From: a bacterium
GTDB taxonomy: Bacteria; JALSQH01
NCBI GenBank assembly: GCA_026985515.1
Contig: JALSQH010000033.1
Span: forward strand, 1-9,710
Direction of reading: 5' to 3'
Length of the DNA: 9,710 nucleotides
The notes under the pieces were generated by a model, which worked only from the letters and a program-made list of their open reading frames with translations, did not search any database and was not told where the DNA came from. Position numbers and translations under genes: made by a program. Shown here in pieces: positions 470 through 9,710 of the stretch; positions within the stretch are counted from its first letter, which is position 1, and each line of letters opens with the position of its first letter.

Positions 470-477
470 TGAAATGC

Positions 478-485
478 AGAGGGGG
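478..485 (+). promoter_or_regulatory. ribosome binding site that sets the GGDEF gene start at 492
   Basis: AGAGGGGG lies six bases before the ATG at 492-494. A second in-frame ATG at 474 lies upstream of this site, has no Shine-Dalgarno sequence of its own and would lie at the predicted transcription start. The ATG at 492 is therefore preferred. Confidence 0.65.
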
Positions 486-491
486 TGTCTT

Positions 492-1553
492 ATGAGCTGT
501 GAAGAAGAACTCATCGAACTTAAAAAGATCAATTCAAAATTACTAAAAACCAATCAGCAACTTGAACAAAAATTACTTGAACTTTACACCCTTTACAGCA
601 TTTCAAGGGAGCTGACTGATGCAACAGAGCTTGAAGAGATGTTGAACGCAACCATGCAAATCATGAAGGACACTCTTGGAATAGATGGTTTCGTTGTTTA
701 TCTCAAAGATGACCTGTCAGATTTTTTTGTCCTGCAGAGTGTCTACGGAATAGATCCTGAGAAAATTCAGAACATCAGAATCTCCCCCAACGAGGAGATA
801 ATTAAGGAACTTTCTGAAAAAAACAAAATAATGGTGGATCTCTCAGAAAACAACATTCCAATTCTTTCACCCGACCTGATAAAAAAAGGGAAAATGCTGC
901 TCCTTTCCTTCAGAAACCTCGAAATGGTCGGTTTTATAGGGATTTTGAGAAGCAGCAGGGAATTTGAGAATCATGAATGGGAATTTTTTGAAAATATGTC
1001 GGAACAGCTTACAAAAGCCATAGAAAAGTTTCTCCATCAAAAGAAAGTTCAGGACATGATAATCATTGACACTGAGACAGGACTCTATAATAGAAAATTT
1101 TTCTTTGAGGCAATGAAAAGGGAATGGGAAAGAGCAAGAAGGTACAAACGATTTATGAGCCTAATGATAATAAAAGTTAACAACTTCAATGAATTTTTTT
1201 CAAAACATGGTAGCAATCTCTCTGAAGCTTTACTGAGAAGTATTGCCCAAACCCTTTCAGCCAACATAAGATTCAGCGACATAATTGCCCGTTTCGGAAT
1301 TGATGAATTCGCAATAATTCTTCCTGAAACCAATTCGGAAAAAGCTGAAAAAGCTGCAAGAAAGATTCTCAATATTCTGGAGAAAAAAAGATTCCTTGGT
1401 GAAAGCGAAATGGGAGAAAATGGAGTTACTTTCTCAATTGGTATTGCATCATATCCTGAGTCAGGAGAGGAACCTCTGAAAATTCTGAACAGCGCTATTG
1501 AAGCTACCAGGCTTGCTCAAAAAGGCGGACCCGGTAAAATTATTGTTGCATGA
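492..1553 (+). CDS. GAF-like/GGDEF-like signalling protein with degenerate active site
   Basis: The 353-residue soluble protein has three parts: a Lys/Glu/Leu-rich coiled coil (about residues 3-40), a GAF-like sensor domain (about 42-182), and a GGDEF domain (about 188-353) that begins with the usual D-x3-GLYNR motif (193-201). GGDEF domains normally make cyclic di-GMP from two GTP. Here the signature reads GIDEF (269-273), and the strand that normally carries DIDxFK reads KVNNFN (228-233), so the metal-binding Asp is Lys228. By alignment with PleD, guanine-binding Asn335 becomes Phe236 and Asp344 becomes Glu245. The inhibitory-site motif RxxD is intact (Arg260, Asp263), five residues before the signature. 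Cyclase activity is therefore unlikely and c-di-GMP binding is plausible. The stop overlaps the start of queA by four bases (ATGA), so translation of the two is probably coupled. No membrane segment is visible; the GAF ligand is unknown. Confidence 0.88.
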   Translation: MSCEEELIELKKINSKLLKTNQQLEQKLLELYTLYSISRELTDATELEEMLNATMQIMKDTLGIDGFVVYLKDDLSDFFVLQSVYGIDPEKIQNIRISPNEEIIKELSEKNKIMVDLSENNIPILSPDLIKKGKMLLLSFRNLEMVGFIGILRSSREFENHEWEFFENMSEQLTKAIEKFLHQKKVQDMIIIDTETGLYNRKFFFEAMKREWERARRYKRFMSLMIIKVNNFNEFFSKHGSNLSEALLRSIAQTLSANIRFSDIIARFGIDEFAIILPETNSEKAEKAARKILNILEKKRFLGESEMGENGVTFSIGIASYPESGEEPLKILNSAIEATRLAQKGGPGKIIVA

Positions 1554-2581
1554 AAATAGACGAATTTGACTTTCATCTTCCTGAAGAACTCATAGCAATT
1601 TACCCGAGGAAAGAGAGAAGTTCCTCAAAATTGCTTGTGCTGTACAGGGAAAGTGGGGAAATAATACACTCCTCATTCAAACATCTTCCTCAATTTCTTG
1701 ACAGCAGTTTTCTCATCGTTTATAACGACACAAGAGTCATACCTGCAAGATTGTACCTTAAAAAAGAGACAGGGGGAAGAATAGAAATTCTTCTTGACCA
1801 CCCGGTGGGAGAAAATAGATGGACCGGGATCTTTTCAGCTTCAAAACCACCAAAAGTGAACTCGGACCTTTACTATGGGAAAGAAAAGGTGTTTAAAGTG
1901 GAAAAAGTGGAAAAAAATATGATAACCCTCAGATTCCTGGGGGAAGATTTCAAATCCTTCATAGAAAAAGCAGGGAATGTTCCCCTTCCTCCCTACATTC
2001 TCAAAAGAAGAAAAGGTGTGATACTTCCAGAGGATAGGGAATTTTATCAAACAATCTTTGCTGTAAAAAATGGGGCTGTGGCAGCACCCACGGCAGGGAT
2101 ACATTTTGACGAGGAGGTATGGAAAAAATTAAAGGAAAAGAAAATTGAAAGTGTCCCGGTGACCCTACATGTTGGAATTGGCACATTTCTCCCTGTTAAA
2201 ACAGAAGAAGTTGAAAAACACAAAATGCATTCAGAAAGGGTGATTATCACAGAAGAAGCTGCAGAAAAAATATCAATGTGGAAAGAAAAAGGGGGGAAAG
2301 TTCTTGCAATTGGTACCACGACAGTAAGAGCCCTTGAAGGAGTAATTGCAAAGACAGGAAAACTCACTGCCTTTGAAGGTGAAGTTGATATTTTCATATA
2401 TCCGGGATTTAAATTTAAAATCGTTGACGCAATGATTACCAATTTTCATCTCCCAAGAAGCACACTGATTCTCCTTGTTGCAGCCTTTGCAGGTAAAGAT
2501 AAAATCATGAAAGCATACAGAGAGGCAATTGAGAAAAAATACAGATTCTTCAGTTACGGCGATGCAATGCTGATACTATAA
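1550..2581 (+). CDS. queA: S-adenosylmethionine:tRNA ribosyltransferase-isomerase QueA
   Basis: QueA transfers and isomerises the ribosyl group of S-adenosylmethionine onto preQ1 in tRNA position 34, producing epoxyqueuosine. At 343 residues it has normal family length and is complete. Family landmarks appear in order: FDFHLPEELIAIYP (6-19), VYNDTRVIPARL (57-68), GAVAAPTAGIHFDEE (175-189), LHVGIGTF (206-213), HSERV (227-231), IGTTTVRALE (254-263), FIYPGFKFK (282-290), the ITNFHLPRSTL segment (296-306), and a C-terminal FSYGDAMLI. The start ATG lies inside the ATGA overlap with the preceding gene and has no clear Shine-Dalgarno sequence, so translation is likely coupled to that gene. The next gene, tgt, catalyses the preceding step of the same pathway and begins nine bases downstream. 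The enzyme is cytoplasmic. I see no missing conserved block. Confidence 0.97.
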   Translation: MKIDEFDFHLPEELIAIYPRKERSSSKLLVLYRESGEIIHSSFKHLPQFLDSSFLIVYNDTRVIPARLYLKKETGGRIEILLDHPVGENRWTGIFSASKPPKVNSDLYYGKEKVFKVEKVEKNMITLRFLGEDFKSFIEKAGNVPLPPYILKRRKGVILPEDREFYQTIFAVKNGAVAAPTAGIHFDEEVWKKLKEKKIESVPVTLHVGIGTFLPVKTEEVEKHKMHSERVIITEEAAEKISMWKEKGGKVLAIGTTTVRALEGVIAKTGKLTAFEGEVDIFIYPGFKFKIVDAMITNFHLPRSTLILLVAAFAGKDKIMKAYREAIEKKYRFFSYGDAMLIL

Positions 2582-3721
<1,140 letters not shown>

Positions 3722-3730
3722 TCATTATTG

Positions 3731-6481
3731 TTAGTACCACAAAGGTTCAACTTTTTGAGGTGTAATTCTCCATGGATAATCTTCCAAACCTAAAATACCA
3801 TACTGGCTCCTACCAAAACAATAGGCCTTATTATCAGAAGCAATACTACAGGTAAAACTGTTCCCTGCTGAAACATCCTGCCAAGTCTTAGAACTTTTAA
3901 CTTTTACAGGAGAATAAAAAGACCCCCTACTTTTTATTCCCAATTCCCCATAATTATTATATCCCCAGCATCTAATTGTATTATCCATTTGAATTGCACA
4001 GGTATGGAGCGGTCCTGCATCAACAGCTTTCCATTCATAATCTCCATCAACTTTTAAAGGCTCAGTTTCTCTATATGAAGAGTATCCAAGTCCAAGTTTA
4101 CCCCATCTGTTGTCTCCCCAGCAGTAAAGAGAATGATCAGATTTAATAGCACAGTTATGGATAGAACCAGCTGTAATATATACCCAATCATTGTCACTAC
4201 CAACCTGTTGAGGGGTATTGTAACTACTGGTATTTCCAATGCCAAGCTGTCCAAAATTATTTCTTCCCCAGCACCAGATAGTTCCATCATCCTTCAATCC
4301 ACAAGTGTGATCACTACCAGTAACAACCTGTAACCAATCAGTATCTGTTCCAACCTGCTGGGGAGTATTATAATTATTATTATCCCCAAGTCCCAGCTGT
4401 CCATAATTATTTCTTCCCCAGCACCACAGAGTTCCATTACTCTTCACGCCACAGGCATGGTAATATCCAGATGAGATATCACTCCAGTTGGAGTCGCTTC
4501 CAACTTGCTTTGGAAAATAAGAATTACCTGTATTTCCAATACCTAAGCGGCCATAAGCATTCCTCCCCCAACACCATAAAGTATGATCATCCTGTATCCC
4601 ACATACAAAATTATTTCCAATGGAAAAATCTTGCCATTTCCCTGTTCCTGTATCTGAAACCTGCTGAAAAGTATTATAAAAATATATATCGGTATTTCCC
4701 ACTCCTATTGTACCATAGGAATTATCACCTGTACATAGAAGCTTATCCTCACTGTTAATCAAACAGGTGTTATTTCCAAAAGTACCACCCTTGATCATTT
4801 TTACCGTTTTACCACTATAAGTCATAGTTGGCTCAAAAATATAACCGTTTTCTCCTATGCCAAGCTGTCCATCCCTAAAAAAGTTTCCCCAACAGTATAA
4901 CCACCCATTTTTTATCATACAGGTGTGATCTTCCCCCCCGCTCATATAAGTTATACCAGGATCATCAGAGATAATATGAGGTGAGTTGACACGGTAGGTA
5001 GTACTTTCAAATCCCAATTGTCTGTAATCATTTTCACCCCAGCAGTAGAGTTTAGTATCATTTATGCCACAGACATGTCTGCTTCCAGCTTTTACAAAAC
5101 TCCACTTTGTACTTGTTCCAACCTGATTTGGAGAATTTTTACTTGCATAATCACCAGTACCAAGCTGACCATAATAGTTGTGTCCCCAACACCAGAGGGT
5201 ACCATTCTGTCTTAGCCCACAGGTAAAATAACCACCAGTGGTTAATTCAATCCAATCTGCATTAGCTCCAACCTGGTGGGGTGCATTGTATTCAAGATAA
5301 TTTCCTGCACCAAGCTGCCCACTATTATTTGCTCCCCAGCAGTACAGAGTCCCATCTGTTTTAAGAGCACATGTGTGATAGTAGCCTGCACTGACAGATT
5401 TCCAATCAGAATCACTTCCCACCTGCTGCGGAGAAGAATAATTTGAGTTATCACCCAATCCAAGTTGTCCGTTATTATTGTTCCCCCAGCACCACAGGGT
5501 ACCATCAGCTTTCACCCCGCAGGTATGATAATATCCAGTGGTTACATCAACCCAATCCGTATCTTGCCCAATCTGCTGGGGAGTATAATAACTATTGTAA
5601 AATTCACCTACACCAAGCTGTCCATCATAGTTATACCCCCAGCACCACAGGGTTCCATCACTCTGGATACCACATGTATGCATATATCCTGTGGATACGA
5701 CTTTCCATATGGAATCATTGACTTTAACAGGATAATAATAGTAGCCTTGACCAGGGACACCAACTCTTCCCCATCCATTGTTTCCCCAACAATAGAGAAA
5801 ACCCGCCTGGTTGATCCCACAGGTATAGCTTCCCCCAGCATCAACCATTTTCCAGTAAGTAGCTGTTACTTCCCAGCTATAGGTGGCCGGGGTCTCATCT
5901 TTGTTTCCTGATGGATCTATTGCCCTCACATAAAAGGTGTGATGTCCTATAGAAAGACTTCTGTTTTCATAAGGTGGCTTGCATGGAAACCAGTCTGAAT
6001 TGTCAATCCTGCACTCAAATTCATCCACATATCCTGCAGTTCGATCAACTCCCGTGAAGGTAAAAAACGCCCTTGCAGTTGGTTCAGAGGGGCTGATATC
6101 AATAAATGTATCTGGAGGGAAAACATCTGGTGGTACAACAGGTTCTGTGGTTACACTTACTGCAATACCCTTTGAGTTAAACCCTGTTAATCTGTACACA
6201 TAAGATATTCCATCAAACACACTATAATCTGTAAAAACATTCACTGAATCGGGAACCTCTGCCACTTTCACAAAATTTCCCGATCCTTCCCTCCTCTCTA
6301 CGAGAATTTTTCCACGGGCCTGAGAGGAAACTTTCCAGGAAACAACAATAGCTTTTTGTTCTTCACTCCACACAGCACCGACTTTACTGAAAAGAGCTGT
6401 CTCAACGCTGGTTAAATGATTGTTGTTACAGGAAGCGAAGAAAAGAAAAAAAACAGGGATAAACCAAACAAACTTTCTCAT
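3731..6481 (-). CDS. large lipoprotein with FnIII-like, Ig-like and 14 RCC1 repeats
   Basis: The 916-residue protein begins with MRKF, a hydrophobic stretch and a lipobox ending FFAS-Cys18, so it is predicted to be exported and lipidated. The next residue is Asn, not Asp, which by the E. coli rule favours the outer membrane. A fibronectin-III-like domain (about 29-115) is followed by an Ig-like domain (about 122-206) of the FECRID...C...G.HTFYVRA.D..GN type, with a possible Cys157-Cys167 pair. Residues 210-916 are 14 RCC1 repeats of about 50 residues, most ending in CWG.N..GQLG. RCC1 repeats form seven-bladed propellers, so 14 suggests two. Nearly every blade has two cysteines 9-10 residues apart. 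The start at 6481 is chosen because of the signal peptide and strong AAAGGGGGGAGG; an upstream in-frame ATG at 6523 would precede the promoter's own -10 box. The role is unknown: probably surface binding or adhesion. Confidence 0.93.
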   Translation of the reverse strand: MRKFVWFIPVFFLFFASCNNNHLTSVETALFSKVGAVWSEEQKAIVVSWKVSSQARGKILVERREGSGNFVKVAEVPDSVNVFTDYSVFDGISYVYRLTGFNSKGIAVSVTTEPVVPPDVFPPDTFIDISPSEPTARAFFTFTGVDRTAGYVDEFECRIDNSDWFPCKPPYENRSLSIGHHTFYVRAIDPSGNKDETPATYSWEVTATYWKMVDAGGSYTCGINQAGFLYCWGNNGWGRVGVPGQGYYYYPVKVNDSIWKVVSTGYMHTCGIQSDGTLWCWGYNYDGQLGVGEFYNSYYTPQQIGQDTDWVDVTTGYYHTCGVKADGTLWCWGNNNNGQLGLGDNSNYSSPQQVGSDSDWKSVSAGYYHTCALKTDGTLYCWGANNSGQLGAGNYLEYNAPHQVGANADWIELTTGGYFTCGLRQNGTLWCWGHNYYGQLGTGDYASKNSPNQVGTSTKWSFVKAGSRHVCGINDTKLYCWGENDYRQLGFESTTYRVNSPHIISDDPGITYMSGGEDHTCMIKNGWLYCWGNFFRDGQLGIGENGYIFEPTMTYSGKTVKMIKGGTFGNNTCLINSEDKLLCTGDNSYGTIGVGNTDIYFYNTFQQVSDTGTGKWQDFSIGNNFVCGIQDDHTLWCWGRNAYGRLGIGNTGNSYFPKQVGSDSNWSDISSGYYHACGVKSNGTLWCWGRNNYGQLGLGDNNNYNTPQQVGTDTDWLQVVTGSDHTCGLKDDGTIWCWGRNNFGQLGIGNTSSYNTPQQVGSDNDWVYITAGSIHNCAIKSDHSLYCWGDNRWGKLGLGYSSYRETEPLKVDGDYEWKAVDAGPLHTCAIQMDNTIRCWGYNNYGELGIKSRGSFYSPVKVKSSKTWQDVSAGNSFTCSIASDNKAYCFGRSQYGILGLEDYPWRITPQKVEPLWY
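3734..5854 (-). repeat. array of 14 RCC1 repeats (about 150 bp each)
   Basis: Fourteen in-frame coding repeats fill the 3' three-quarters of the lipoprotein gene. Blades 2-5 and 9-11 are the most alike, sharing HTCG...DGTLWCWG...GQLG.G...Y..PQQVG and similar DNA such as CCCAGCACCACAG. Blades 6-8 are divergent: blade 6 has RQLG in place of GQLG, blade 7 carries an insertion (FFRDGQLG), and blade 8 has CTG for CWG and an elongated end. Blade 14 has CFG. The pattern fits duplication of blades followed by drift, with a divergent middle that could mark the junction of two seven-bladed propellers. Confidence 0.85.
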
Positions 6482-6483
6482 AA

Positions 6484-6495
6484 CCTCCCCCCTTT
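6484..6495 (-). promoter_or_regulatory. strong ribosome binding site of the RCC1 lipoprotein gene
   Basis: Read on the minus strand the site is AAAGGGGGGAGG, ending two bases before the ATG at 6481. It fixes the start at the signal-peptide methionine rather than the in-frame ATG 42 bases upstream. Confidence 0.7.
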
Positions 6496-6511
6496 CCAGA
6501 AGATTTGAGTG

Positions 6512-6520
6512 ATTATACCA
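6512..6520 (-). promoter_or_regulatory. extended -10 promoter of the RCC1 lipoprotein gene
   Basis: The minus strand carries TGGTATAAT, a perfect -10 box preceded by the TGn extension. No good -35 box lies at the usual distance, where a run of seven T occurs instead, as is typical of extended -10 promoters. Transcription would start near 6505, leaving a leader of about 24 bases that holds the strong Shine-Dalgarno sequence. Confidence 0.55.
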
Positions 6521-6548
6521 CATCGGAAGAAAAAAATCCAGCGGATAC

Positions 6549-6576
6549 TTGACATTCGATATTACATTTGTATAAT
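6549..6576 (+). promoter_or_regulatory. perfect-consensus promoter of the ModE-like/receptor/ABC operon
   Basis: TTGACA (6549-6554) and TATAAT (6571-6576) match the sigma-70 consensus at all twelve positions, with a 16-bp spacer. The -10 box ends nine bases before the ATG at 6586, so the transcript would start about 2-4 bases before the start codon. Such a strong promoter usually needs repression, and a palindrome covers its spacer and -10 box. Confidence 0.75.
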
Positions 6577-6582
6577 AACGAA
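6555..6582. promoter_or_regulatory. ModE-box-like operator palindrome
   Basis: The left arm TTCGATATTA (6555-6564) and right arm TAATAACGAA (6573-6582) are inverted repeats matching at nine of ten positions, separated by eight bases. The outer parts read TCGnTAT...ATAACGA with 20 bases between the two CG steps. As I recall it, this is the layout of E. coli ModE operators (CGnTAT and ATAACG half-sites, same CG-to-CG distance); the inner bases match less well. The palindrome spans the spacer, the -10 box and the probable transcription start, so a bound protein would block the promoter. It lies immediately before a gene for a ModE-family DNA-binding protein, which points to autoregulation. Confidence 0.6.
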
Positions 6583-6585
6583 CAA

Positions 6586-6948
6586 ATGAAGATCAAATCC
6601 AAGATATGGATCGAAGACAACGAGGGTAAAACAATTATAAGTTACGGTAAGTATCTCCTGCTGAAGGAGATTTCAAAAACTCATTCTCTATCAGAATCAG
6701 CATCAAATCTTGGCCTTTCCTTTCGTAAAGCGTGGATAATGATCAAAACTATGAATGAGAGAGCTGGTACCCCTCTTGTAATTACAAAGAAGGGAGGAGC
6801 TGGTGGTGGAGGAGAAACTTTTTTAACTCCAGAGGGTGAAAAATTGATCCAGTTTTTTGAGATACTCAACAGAGAAGTTGAACATCTGACCGGAAGTTTT
6901 GAAAAAGTAATATGGGATAATCTACCATCAAACCCTGAAAAGGAGTGA
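6586..6948 (+). CDS. ModE-family winged-helix regulator, DNA-binding domain only
   Basis: The 120-residue protein matches the N-terminal DNA-binding domain of the molybdate regulator ModE: GKYLLLKEISKTHSLSESAS (21-40), the recognition region LGLSFRKAWIMIKTMN (42-57), and the glycine-rich wing GGAGGGGETFLTPEGEKL (70-87). Full ModE has about 260 residues with two C-terminal MOP domains that bind molybdate; these are absent, so the ligand-sensing part is missing or is supplied by another protein. Similar single-domain relatives occur in many bacteria. A TTG 18 bases upstream is in frame, but it would put the -10 box inside the coding sequence, so the ATG at 6586 is preferred. No Shine-Dalgarno sequence precedes it and the message is probably leaderless. 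The TonB-dependent receptor gene starts three bases after the stop. Likely role: repressor of its own operon. Confidence 0.85.
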   Translation: MKIKSKIWIEDNEGKTIISYGKYLLLKEISKTHSLSESASNLGLSFRKAWIMIKTMNERAGTPLVITKKGGAGGGGETFLTPEGEKLIQFFEILNREVEHLTGSFEKVIWDNLPSNPEKE

Positions 6949-6951
6949 AAG

Positions 6952-8886
6952 ATGTTGATTCACCTCGTTTTTTACTTACTCACAGTTACATCATCCACTT
7001 TCTCGTCTCCCCAGACTACAGTTTCAAATCATTATTTCAAGCAAGTAAGTTCGGTAACTCCTGGAAGCTTCACCATAGGAGAAGTAGTGGTGACTGCCAG
7101 AAGGGTTTTACCATCAACCCGTCTCTACATAAGAAAACAGGATATTGAAGAAAAGGGAGCAATTTCCCTTGAAAAAATCTCAAATCTAACCCCTGTAATA
7201 AACACCCAGCAAACATCCAGAGGTGATACATACATCTACCTCTCTGGCTTCAACCACAAGGAGATTCAGATATACCTTGATGGGATTCCGGTTTATATCC
7301 CTTACAATGGTGATATTGGAGCTGACATACTCAAACTGATAAATGTTGAAAAAATTGTTATTGAACCTGTGCTCCCTTCCCTCTTTTATGGTCCCAACGC
7401 TATGGGGGGAGCAGTTAATATTCTCTCAGCATCTCCTGAGGAAGGCTTACATGGAAAGGGAGTTGCGGAGATAAGCAGTTCGTGGGGGAAAAGTTTTAAA
7501 CTGATCCTTGGAGACAGAAGCGGTCATCTCTACGGTGGAGCATCAACATATCTATGGAAAGACCCTGGATTCATTCTCTCTAAAAAATTCCACTCCTCTT
7601 TAAATGAAAATGGAGGATTGAGAGAAAACAGTTACAGCAACGGATACTCATTTTTCGGATACACAGGATATCAGGATGAGGAAGATTTCCTCACGGTAAG
7701 ATACTACAAAACATCCATGGAGAAAGGTGTACCACCTGAAGTCAACTCCACCAGGCCCAGATACTGGAAATTTACCGACTGGGAAAAAGATTTTCTAAAT
7801 CTGGTGGGTAAAAAACACTTCAAAAAATTTCTACTGAGGTTTAACTCAGCATATACCGGTTACTACAATGTCCTTGATTCATACGATAACAGCTACTATA
7901 CGACACAAACCAGACGATATGCATTCCACTCCACATATGATGACTACACCCTTCTTGATACATTGACTGGATCCATGTCCATTGGAGAGGCATCCATCTC
8001 AACAATGCTCCTGTACAGAAAAGATATTCACAGGGAACAATCCGATTATAATAAAGAATGGGAAAAGTATGGTCAGGAATTGTACTCAACTGCAGTAAGG
8101 GCAACATTTCAGCATAAAAAATTGATCTTCCTCACAGAGGGCAGATACGACTACCTTGCAGCATTCAAATACCACAACAGTCAGGCAACAAACTACCGCT
8201 TTGGCACAAGGTATCTTACAGATTCAGGTAAAATTGACATTATCTTTGGTTCCACAACAAGATTTCCTACAATGAAGGAAAAGTACTCCCATCATCATGG
8301 AAAAAGCATTCCAAACCCGGATCTGAAACCTGAAAGTCAGACGGCAGTTGTTCTGAAGTATCAAAATGATTTTTCAAATCATTTCCTTCTTACCACCTAT
8401 GCTTTTTACTCCAGAATAAGAAATCTTATTCAATCCAAATATGTTGATGAAAATATCACACAGAATCAGAACATTGCAAAGGCAGAAATTGAAGGATTCT
8501 ATGTTTTCGCTGAATACTTTCAGAGTAATATGAACATATCCGGGAGCCTAACAGGTACATGGGCCAAAGACTTAACAAATAATTTGCACCTTCCATACAG
8601 ACCCAGGTGGAAAATCAACATTTCAGGGGATTATTCAATATGGAAAATAAAAATCAACTGTGGTATCAATGGAGAATTCATAAATTTTTATCAGGATGAA
8701 AAAAACGGCGAAATAAAAAAATTACCCTCCTGGTACACTGTGGATATGGGGTCAGAGTTTAATTTCTCCAGCAACTTCTCAGCATATTTTCGAGTGGAAA
8801 ACGTTTTCGACCGTAACTACGAGACAGAACAAGGTTTCCCGGCCCCGGGAAGAATGATATATGCTGGAATCAGGGGAAAATTTTGA
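6952..8886 (+). CDS. TonB-dependent outer-membrane receptor
   Basis: The 644-residue protein is a TonB-dependent receptor, which uses the TonB/ExbBD complex to pull a bound substrate through an outer-membrane barrel. A hydrophobic leader (about residues 3-18) lacks the usual Lys/Arg at its start (MLIH). A TonB box, EVVVTA (44-49), follows. The plug (about 50-165) shows IYLDGIPVYIP (107-117) and the block from NVEKIVIE to YGPNAMGGAVNIL (131-158). The barrel is rich in Tyr/Phe strands, has a SHHHGKSIPNPDLKPES block typical of vitamin B12/siderophore-type receptors, and ends in VENVFDRNYE...GIRGKF with a terminal Phe. Size is near that of BtuB-type receptors. AAGGAG (6940-6945) lies six bases before the start. 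The three His could touch a metal, but this loop is common in the family. Substrate is not readable; the ModE-like neighbour suggests molybdate, tungstate or their carrier. Confidence 0.93.
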   Translation: MLIHLVFYLLTVTSSTFSSPQTTVSNHYFKQVSSVTPGSFTIGEVVVTARRVLPSTRLYIRKQDIEEKGAISLEKISNLTPVINTQQTSRGDTYIYLSGFNHKEIQIYLDGIPVYIPYNGDIGADILKLINVEKIVIEPVLPSLFYGPNAMGGAVNILSASPEEGLHGKGVAEISSSWGKSFKLILGDRSGHLYGGASTYLWKDPGFILSKKFHSSLNENGGLRENSYSNGYSFFGYTGYQDEEDFLTVRYYKTSMEKGVPPEVNSTRPRYWKFTDWEKDFLNLVGKKHFKKFLLRFNSAYTGYYNVLDSYDNSYYTTQTRRYAFHSTYDDYTLLDTLTGSMSIGEASISTMLLYRKDIHREQSDYNKEWEKYGQELYSTAVRATFQHKKLIFLTEGRYDYLAAFKYHNSQATNYRFGTRYLTDSGKIDIIFGSTTRFPTMKEKYSHHHGKSIPNPDLKPESQTAVVLKYQNDFSNHFLLTTYAFYSRIRNLIQSKYVDENITQNQNIAKAEIEGFYVFAEYFQSNMNISGSLTGTWAKDLTNNLHLPYRPRWKINISGDYSIWKIKINCGINGEFINFYQDEKNGEIKKLPSWYTVDMGSEFNFSSNFSAYFRVENVFDRNYETEQGFPAPGRMIYAGIRGKF

Positions 8887-9710
8887 TGGACACTCTGCTG
8901 ATTGTGGAGGGTCTGAGTTTCAGGAATCCATTCACAGGTGAATTTATACTAAAGGATGTTACCTTCAATGTAAAGAGGGGGGAAATAGTAGCGATACATG
9001 GCCCATCTGGTTCAGGTAAATCAACTCTTCTAAAAATTCTGGATGGTTACAGGGAACTTGACATAGTTTCAGGTAAAGTTGTAAATAAGAGCAGCATGAT
9101 AAGGGTCCCACAGGAACCATACAGCAGGATGCTTCATCCTGCAGTTAAAAATATTCTTTCTTCTTATGCAAGAGAAATGCTTCTTCACAGTGGAAAGGGA
9201 CAACTGCTTACCAGAAAAACTTTTCAACTTTCCTATGGAGAGAAGAAACTGATTACAATTATTCACGCCCTCAGCGAAGAGGACCCTCTGATTATCATGG
9301 ATGAACCTTTTGCAGGCTTGGACGAAGAGGCAAAAGAGTTTGTAAAGGAAGAAATCAAAAGGGCAAAAGAGAGGGGTAAGGGTTTTATAATCGTTGATCA
9401 CACCGGCACATTGTCAGAAAGTGAAAAAAACTTTTATATTGATACAGAGTTAAGAACATTGACGGATAAAAAGAAAAAGCATCAGAGGAAGAATTTCTCA
9501 ATAAATTTTAAAAACGACGCAGATGAAGAGGTTCTTTTAAAAATAGAAAAAATTGAGATAAAAAAGGGAGAGAGAATTATAAAATTACCTGCCTGTCTTG
9601 AAATAAAAAGAGGCAAAACCTTTTTCATCACAGGTAAAAATGGAAGTGGAAAAACCTCCATTCTCAGAGCCGTGGCAGGATGGGAAAAAGTGGTAAGAGG
9701 TGAAATAAAT
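8886..9710 (+). CDS. tandem ABC transporter ATPase, CbiO/ECF-like (3' end outside window)
   Basis: The frame opens at an ATG overlapping the receptor stop (TGATG), with AGGGG nine bases upstream, and stays open for 275 residues to the window edge. The first nucleotide-binding domain has Walker A GPSGSGKST (39-47), Q-loop VPQEP (74-78), signature LSYGE (115-119), Walker B LIIMDE (135-140), D-loop GLD (144-146) and H-loop His172. After a Lys-rich linker (about 190-215) a second domain begins with Walker A GKNGSGKTS (250-258). Two ATPase domains in one chain, with QEP-type Q-loops, resemble double CbiO/EcfA-type ATPases that power uptake of cofactors and metals. The first domain is short, with only about 68 residues between Walker A and signature. 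Membrane and substrate-binding partners would lie downstream. It most likely drives inner-membrane import of the substrate brought in by the receptor; a duplicated exporter-type ATPase is a less likely alternative. Confidence 0.88.
   Translation, partial: MDTLLIVEGLSFRNPFTGEFILKDVTFNVKRGEIVAIHGPSGSGKSTLLKILDGYRELDIVSGKVVNKSSMIRVPQEPYSRMLHPAVKNILSSYAREMLLHSGKGQLLTRKTFQLSYGEKKLITIIHALSEEDPLIIMDEPFAGLDEEAKEFVKEEIKRAKERGKGFIIVDHTGTLSESEKNFYIDTELRTLTDKKKKHQRKNFSINFKNDADEEVLLKIEKIEIKKGERIIKLPACLEIKRGKTFFITGKNGSGKTSILRAVAGWEKVVRGEIN

Follow-up and report, generated by a model that had tools for sequence, protein, structure and literature searches.

Known uptake systems and the locus

The molybdenum cofactor (Moco) is generally seen as a cofactor made by each cell for itself. 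Porins admit molybdate on account of its small size; Moco and chelates approach or exceed the size limit of porins. An oxyanion of 160 Da has no need of a TonB receptor. Energy-coupling factor (ECF) systems import mostly cofactors. The literature that we searched, which covered few subscription papers, contained no bacterial Moco importer, although an earlier description is possible, and held nothing relevant on a TonB or ECF system for molybdenum or tungsten (Mo/W). A 2018 survey reported ~300 bacteria with Moco-dependent enzymes and without a complete Moco pathway, the "orphan molybdoprotein" bacteria, most of which have no known molybdenum transporter and which were left unexplained (PMC6147048). 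Here we analyse by computation an operon encoding a ModE-type regulator, a TonB-dependent receptor and a double ATP-binding cassette (ABC) ATPase on a bacterial contig of 9,710 nucleotides (JALSQH010000033.1, assembly GCA_026985515.1). The window analysed is this entire contig, C33 of source genome G000. The best explanation of the operon, which we give slightly better than an even chance, is a complete two-membrane uptake route with a pterin cofactor as the most likely cargo.

Operon layout and receptor

A single sigma-70-type promoter (TTGACA-16-TATAAT, 6549-6576, forward strand) precedes the three genes, and both of its hexamers, read directly in the sequence, are exact (-35 box 6549-6554, -10 box 6571-6576, 16-bp spacer). 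The ModE-like reading frame (6586-6948) is followed after 3 bp by the receptor gene (6952-8886), which overlaps the ATPase gene (8886-9710) by 1 bp (TGATG). The original prediction had been made from these same features, and its perfect promoter, gene spacing, protein identities and compact operon all held on re-examination. Nine base pairs separate the -10 box from the ATG of the ModE gene (window 6571-6588), and the mRNA would be nearly leaderless; similarly tight promoter arrangements, with a ModE box over the start region, lie upstream of the ModE genes of genomes G001 and G106. No Rfam match was found in the window.

G001, the one further genome of this family that was compared, keeps ModE - receptor - double ATPase in that order, at identities of ~55, ~55 and ~43%, a conservation far beyond chance. 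The intact order there is TauE - DUF364 - ModE - receptor - 410-aa double ATPase - S-like - T-like - nucleoside triphosphatase (NTPase).

The receptor, 644 amino acids (aa) encoded on the forward strand, is a predicted TonB-dependent outer-membrane protein of a subfamily characterised by RYWxFTDW...YAFHSTYDD, and it matches the Pfam Plug domain (PF07715) at 43 bits, above the cut-off. A structure prediction had been proposed for it; AlphaFold2 returned a plugged beta-barrel (predicted local distance difference test score, pLDDT, 86.7), for which the best match in the PDB is BtuB (E 1e-30), with OprC and FrpB also matched.

A ModE-type regulator and its operator

The best start of the regulator gene is ATG 6586 (6586-6948, forward strand), giving a predicted ModE_N-only DNA-binding protein of 120 aa that is 55% identical to its G001 orthologue. 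It matches ModE_repress TIGR00637 at 75 bits (E 2.7e-21; curated cut-off 98.5 bits) and PF00126 at 24 bits, both under cut-off. The Pfam search gave no TOBE match for a TOBE/Mop molybdate-binding domain in this protein, which ends after the helix-turn-helix (HTH) region; a TOBE domain is present in the ModE paralogue preceding wtpABC in the source genome. Single-domain ModE proteins, with an unexplained sensing mechanism, have been described in Desulfovibrio (PMC545781).

A predicted ModE operator, CGATATTACATTTGTATAATAACG (6557-6580, no strand assigned), matches the pattern CGNTAT-N12-ATANCG, which has 10 fixed bases, with zero mismatches. It fits the core of the published ModE consensus (PMC545781, PMC2700814), in E. 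coli ATCGNTATATA-N6-TATATANCGAT (PMC545781). The 24-bp element overlaps the -10 box, ends 5 bp upstream of the start codon and is the only exact match in ~58 kb of source-genome sequence. Exact sites were also detected upstream of TauE-DUF364 in G001, of ModE-receptor in G106, and of the receptors of G111 (two sites) and Alloalcanivorax gelatiniphagus, and one-mismatch sites before the ModE gene of G001 and before the source genome's own wtpABC operon.

Probable continuation into an ECF-type transporter

The EcfA-type ATPase gene (8886-9710, forward strand; PF00005, 96.7 bits) is cut in open frame by the contig end at 9710, leaving one complete ABC domain and the Walker A motif of a second; the G001 orthologue is intact, with 410 aa and two ABC domains. 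Contig C34 of the source genome opens with a probable ATPase C-terminus (1-384, the last 127 codons, placed by synteny with G001), followed by an S-like gene (356-904; S profile match at 380-895), a T-like gene (901-1404) and a THEP1-type NTPase gene (1401-1859), the same order as in G001. Comparison of the C33 and C34 ends revealed no sequence overlap, and by alignment a few codons appear to be missing between them; we infer the join from synteny with G001, not from reads. The second EcfA-type ABC domain is apparently completed on C34, and both domains are present in the G001 orthologue. Extension past 9710, as had been proposed, thus led to S-like, T-like and NTPase genes, and no export system was found.

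Modelling of the S-like G001 orthologue with AlphaFold2 (10 sequences) gave seven helices (pLDDT 82.9). The best PDB match is S-component 5edl, the sole match with TM >0.6 (Foldseek E 0.016; VIA Z 13.2 over 157 residues), and the next transporter matches are RibU, 4huq_S, BioY and ThiT. The fold match by itself is not proof, since unrelated methane/ammonia monooxygenase subunits also reach Z 11-12 against the model; an S-component is a plausible assignment. The family has no match in Pfam or NCBIfam; its first helix, or the stretch immediately following, contains an E and an H that are near-invariant. The protein in the T position (167 aa) has no Pfam match, and profile comparison with a CbiQ-containing T set gave a weak match (probability 26%, E 7e-4); T genes in related operons are Pfam CbiQ.

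Profile comparison joins the window-type S proteins with those found mostly in enzyme operons (probability 97.8%, E 9e-13). The S proteins of TiaS-type operons (G025, G043, G310) were rejected as members of the same family (profile probability 0.5%), so that related receptors come with two ECF flavours. Two genomes belonging to one family encode an S-like membrane domain in frame with the receptor N-terminus and apparently fused to it (L071:8585-11365 and L072:7826-10480; 926 and 884 aa), an odd combination of inner- and outer-membrane proteins.

Molybdenum and tungsten context of related loci

A receptor profile was surveyed over 386 genomes and 33 named loci; the window receptor alone as query found no matches over genome contigs, but an alignment with G001, G055 and G256 did. 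With the profile seeds left out, receptors scoring >240 bits had ECF-type neighbours in 12/18 cases and Mo/W markers in 7/18; the corresponding numbers for lower-scoring receptors were 1/34 and 2/34. Conserved adjacency, the check suggested by the original prediction, was found for ModE and receptor in G001, G106, Alloalcanivorax (L173) and a Desulfobacteraceae locus (L165, ordered ModE-receptor-S/NTPase-MobA), and for receptor and ECF genes in many lineages.

Regulators of the TaoR type (HTH_17 plus PBP_like), taken here to function as TaoR does, adjoin the receptor in G025, G119, G235 and G172 and in named Desulfobacterales or Deltaproteobacteria. The order in G025 is TaoR-type regulator - receptor - double ATPase - CbiQ - TiaS-domain protein - S, and in G235 an orphan WtpA adjoins the regulator and receptor. 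Locus L152, from a Desulfobacterales metagenome-assembled genome (MAG), reads receptor-TaoR-WtpA-WtpB-WtpC (WtpA 451 bits, over cut-off), and in L155 TupABC-TaoR is divergent from the receptor (TupA 237 bits, below cut-off).

A third kind of control is the Moco/tungsten cofactor riboswitch (Rfam RF01055), which immediately precedes the receptor gene in L063 and L158 and S-T-receptor operons in L150, L151, L168 and L169 (Ignavibacteria or Melioribacteraceae), occurs in tandem before TupA-receptor-ECF in L055, and in L037 is situated at a greater distance upstream, on the same strand. Five cobalamin riboswitches were present in four of the seven control receptor loci, none of which had a Moco riboswitch, and no cobalamin riboswitch was found in the scanned Moco-riboswitch loci. 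This distribution bears on the possibility that an ECF importer for another cofactor or metal (cobalamin, cobalt, nickel or a thiamine-type precursor) was recruited into Mo/W regulons. The BtuB-like receptor fold, the 5edl-like S model and the CbiQ-related T component of relatives would be consistent with such an origin. However, the receptor reaches 65 bits against an NCBIfam BtuB equivalog cut-off of 836, and three unrelated kinds of Mo/W regulator (ModE, TaoR-type and Moco riboswitch) accompany a repeated AOR, XDH, Wtp and Tup context; we consider recruitment improbable, and a cobalamin role was set aside on the regulator evidence.

The S protein also appears in Mo-hydroxylase operons with MocA and/or XdhC (G175, G291, G137, G216), in an AOR operon (G297), next to MobA (G241) and next to wtp genes (G256), and a Stahlbacteria MAG (L176) has the order MobB-S-receptor-AOR. 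Its presence inside some hydroxylase and AOR operons might indicate import of a substrate of the neighbouring enzymes, such as a purine, aldehyde or N-heterocycle, and of nothing containing Mo or W. This is very unlikely in our estimation, given that the enzymes concerned come from various families and act on different substrates, and that what the regulators and the Wtp, Tup and Moco-riboswitch partners have in common is Mo/W.

The ModE operators, the Moco riboswitches and the Wtp, Tup, AOR and XDH neighbours together fix the link to Mo/W, and a Mo/W role of the operon is very likely. The same three lines of evidence support the two-membrane Mo/W uptake originally predicted, although the regulator on which that prediction leaned has no molybdate-sensing domain. 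An oxyanion, a metallophore and a cofactor had all been named as substrates; the Mo/W link stands, but free molybdate or tungstate is a less likely cargo than a large Mo/W species, either Moco or a chelate, because the genome already has wtpABC. With cofactor and chelate taken together, a Mo/W-related cargo is highly probable.

Several other features recur around these genes. Where the operon is of the TaoR/riboswitch version, a conserved TiaS_TCKD-type (kinase-like) protein is encoded close to the receptor or between T and S (L035:6184-6918, L037:5436-6143, L055:12482-13318, L056:7161-7916, L063:2477-3214). DUF364, a putative heavy-metal chelation domain, repeatedly accompanies the S protein and Mo/W genes (L033:1118-1879, L126:7523-8326, L133:9334-10092, L135:8314-9051). 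Secreted Oxidored_molyb-domain proteins, one of them fused to a tetrapyrrole methylase, adjoin the receptor (L155:7835-8944, L058:6170-7981) and could be periplasmic cofactor-binding partners. A fusion of ModE_N with a siderophore-type Peripla_BP_2 domain, resembling a chelate sensor, adjoins a related receptor (L087:594-2045).

Cofactor or metal

Mo hydroxylases (PF02738) were detected in 156 of the 386 genomes, 41 of which had no MoaA (PF06463). The S protein, detected with one profile, was present in 20 of these 41 genomes versus 5 of the 115 with MoaA (odds ratio 21, Fisher p 8e-10, in counts that ignore phylogeny, the 20 S-bearing genomes representing ~15 families). Furthermore, nine S-bearing genomes (G106, G270, G133, G343, G137, G291, G297, G256, G216; completeness 86-100%) have neither MoaA nor MoeA, the latter checked in a subset of S-bearing genomes, yet they have Mo hydroxylases or AOR. 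MocA or XdhC adjoin the S gene in G137, G291 and G216, and no PF13531 binding protein was found in G106, G133 and G343. The lack of both MoaA and MoeA implies a pterin obtained from outside, non-functional enzymes, or some other unknown pathway. These absences, the size argument for TonB receptors and the source genome's own wtpABC make cofactor import the best single reading, at about an even chance.

The same machinery might instead import metal, with the receptor taking up a Mo/W metallophore (catecholate or thio-complex) and the ECF transporter importing the chelate or the released oxyanion. This is the main, serious rival to cofactor import, and we regard it as possible, though well below an even chance. 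It would be consistent with the ModE and TaoR regulators, with receptors encoded in an operon with, or divergently from, WtpABC, TupABC or ModA (L152, L155, L159, L160), with a Peripla_BP_2 gene adjoining the receptor in L157, and with a siderophore-type ModE_N-Peripla_BP_2 fusion adjoining a less closely related receptor in G091. However, import of metal leaves unexplained why the S protein is enriched where MoaA and MoeA are absent, the source genome already has wtpABC, and we noticed no genes for chelator synthesis in the loci read, where no systematic search was made.

Besides the disregard of phylogeny in the above counts, several points weigh against cofactor import. Most surveyed genomes are drafts, and the source genome has MoaA, MoeA and wtpABC and therefore does not need an imported cofactor. 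The same receptor subfamily adjoins the oxyanion movers WtpABC or TupABC, and ModE and Moco riboswitches also control modABC and thus cannot separate metal from cofactor. Moco itself is unstable and oxidation-sensitive (PMC9793310). The S protein was undetected in 21 of the 41 MoaA-lacking Mo-hydroxylase genomes, and the Mo-hydroxylase neighbourhoods of S-negative, MoaA-lacking genomes had an S gene in only 1/20 cases (L199; controls 0/20), so that hidden S genes do not account for the remainder.

Five near-complete genomes (G101, G239, G368, G141, G278; loci L182-L188, L200) have Mo hydroxylases, no MoaA and no detected S protein, and are possibly a second group of Moco auxotrophs without a candidate importer.

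Proposed mechanism and significance

For cofactor import, we infer the direction of transport, the cargo, the role of the NTPase and the response of the repressor to Mo/W as follows. A large molecule containing Mo or W would cross the outer membrane through the TonB-dependent receptor and enter the cytoplasm through the ECF-type transporter (double ATPase, T-like and S-like proteins), perhaps assisted in some manner by the THEP1-type NTPase. The ModE_N-type repressor, acting on the operator over its own promoter, would turn the operon off when Mo/W is plentiful. The cargo would most likely be a pterin cofactor, whether Moco, molybdopterin or a tungsten form, imported as salvage by the source genome, which is able to synthesise Moco, and as the main supply by relatives without the synthesis pathway.

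A wider proposal, to which we give just under an even chance, is that this combination of TonB receptor and ECF transporter with an undescribed S family is a widespread bacterial importer of Moco or tungsten cofactor serving non-synthesisers. If true, cofactor import would explain the published "orphan molybdoprotein" bacteria and make Moco a shared good, like vitamin B12, and with a concrete candidate transporter this question can be tested directly. Were the cargo a chelate instead, the locus would still represent a Mo/W receptor of the outer membrane and a Mo/W ECF system, and the literature searched contained neither.

Other features of the window

Upstream of the operon, the reverse strand encodes a secreted protein of 930 aa that resembles a lipoprotein and has 11 RCC1 repeats, in which YCWG motifs abound (3731-6523). 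A queuosine cluster (474-3721) is led by a putative diguanylate cyclase, a GAF-GGDEF protein whose gene overlaps queA, followed by tgt. Queuosine uptake, suggested by this upstream queA-tgt pair, was dropped in view of the intervening opposite-strand gene and the lack of a recurring queuosine marker.

Comparison with known systems

The operon has Mo/W regulation in common with ModABC, WtpABC and TupABC, and the same ModE-type operator precedes the source genome's wtpABC. It differs from them in its ECF architecture (double ATPase, S-like and T-like proteins) and its outer-membrane receptor; a periplasmic binding protein and ModB-type permease are not in the G001 and G000 operons and are present elsewhere in G000. 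As in E. coli ModE, the regulator has a predicted N-terminal HTH and a matching operator pattern, but it is without the TOBE/Mop domains. ECF transporters with YkoE, RibU, ThiT or BioY S-components likewise combine an A1A2 double ATPase with an S-like membrane protein, whereas the S family described here is outside the Pfam and NCBIfam families. Vitamin B12 uptake through BtuB and BtuCDF or ECF-CbrT likewise couples a TonB receptor to a cytoplasmic-membrane importer for a large metal-containing cofactor under the control of a cofactor sensor, and BtuB has the fold nearest to the window receptor. The two receptors are only 15% identical, however, and the place of the cobalamin riboswitch is taken here by a ModE box, a TaoR-type regulator or a Moco riboswitch.

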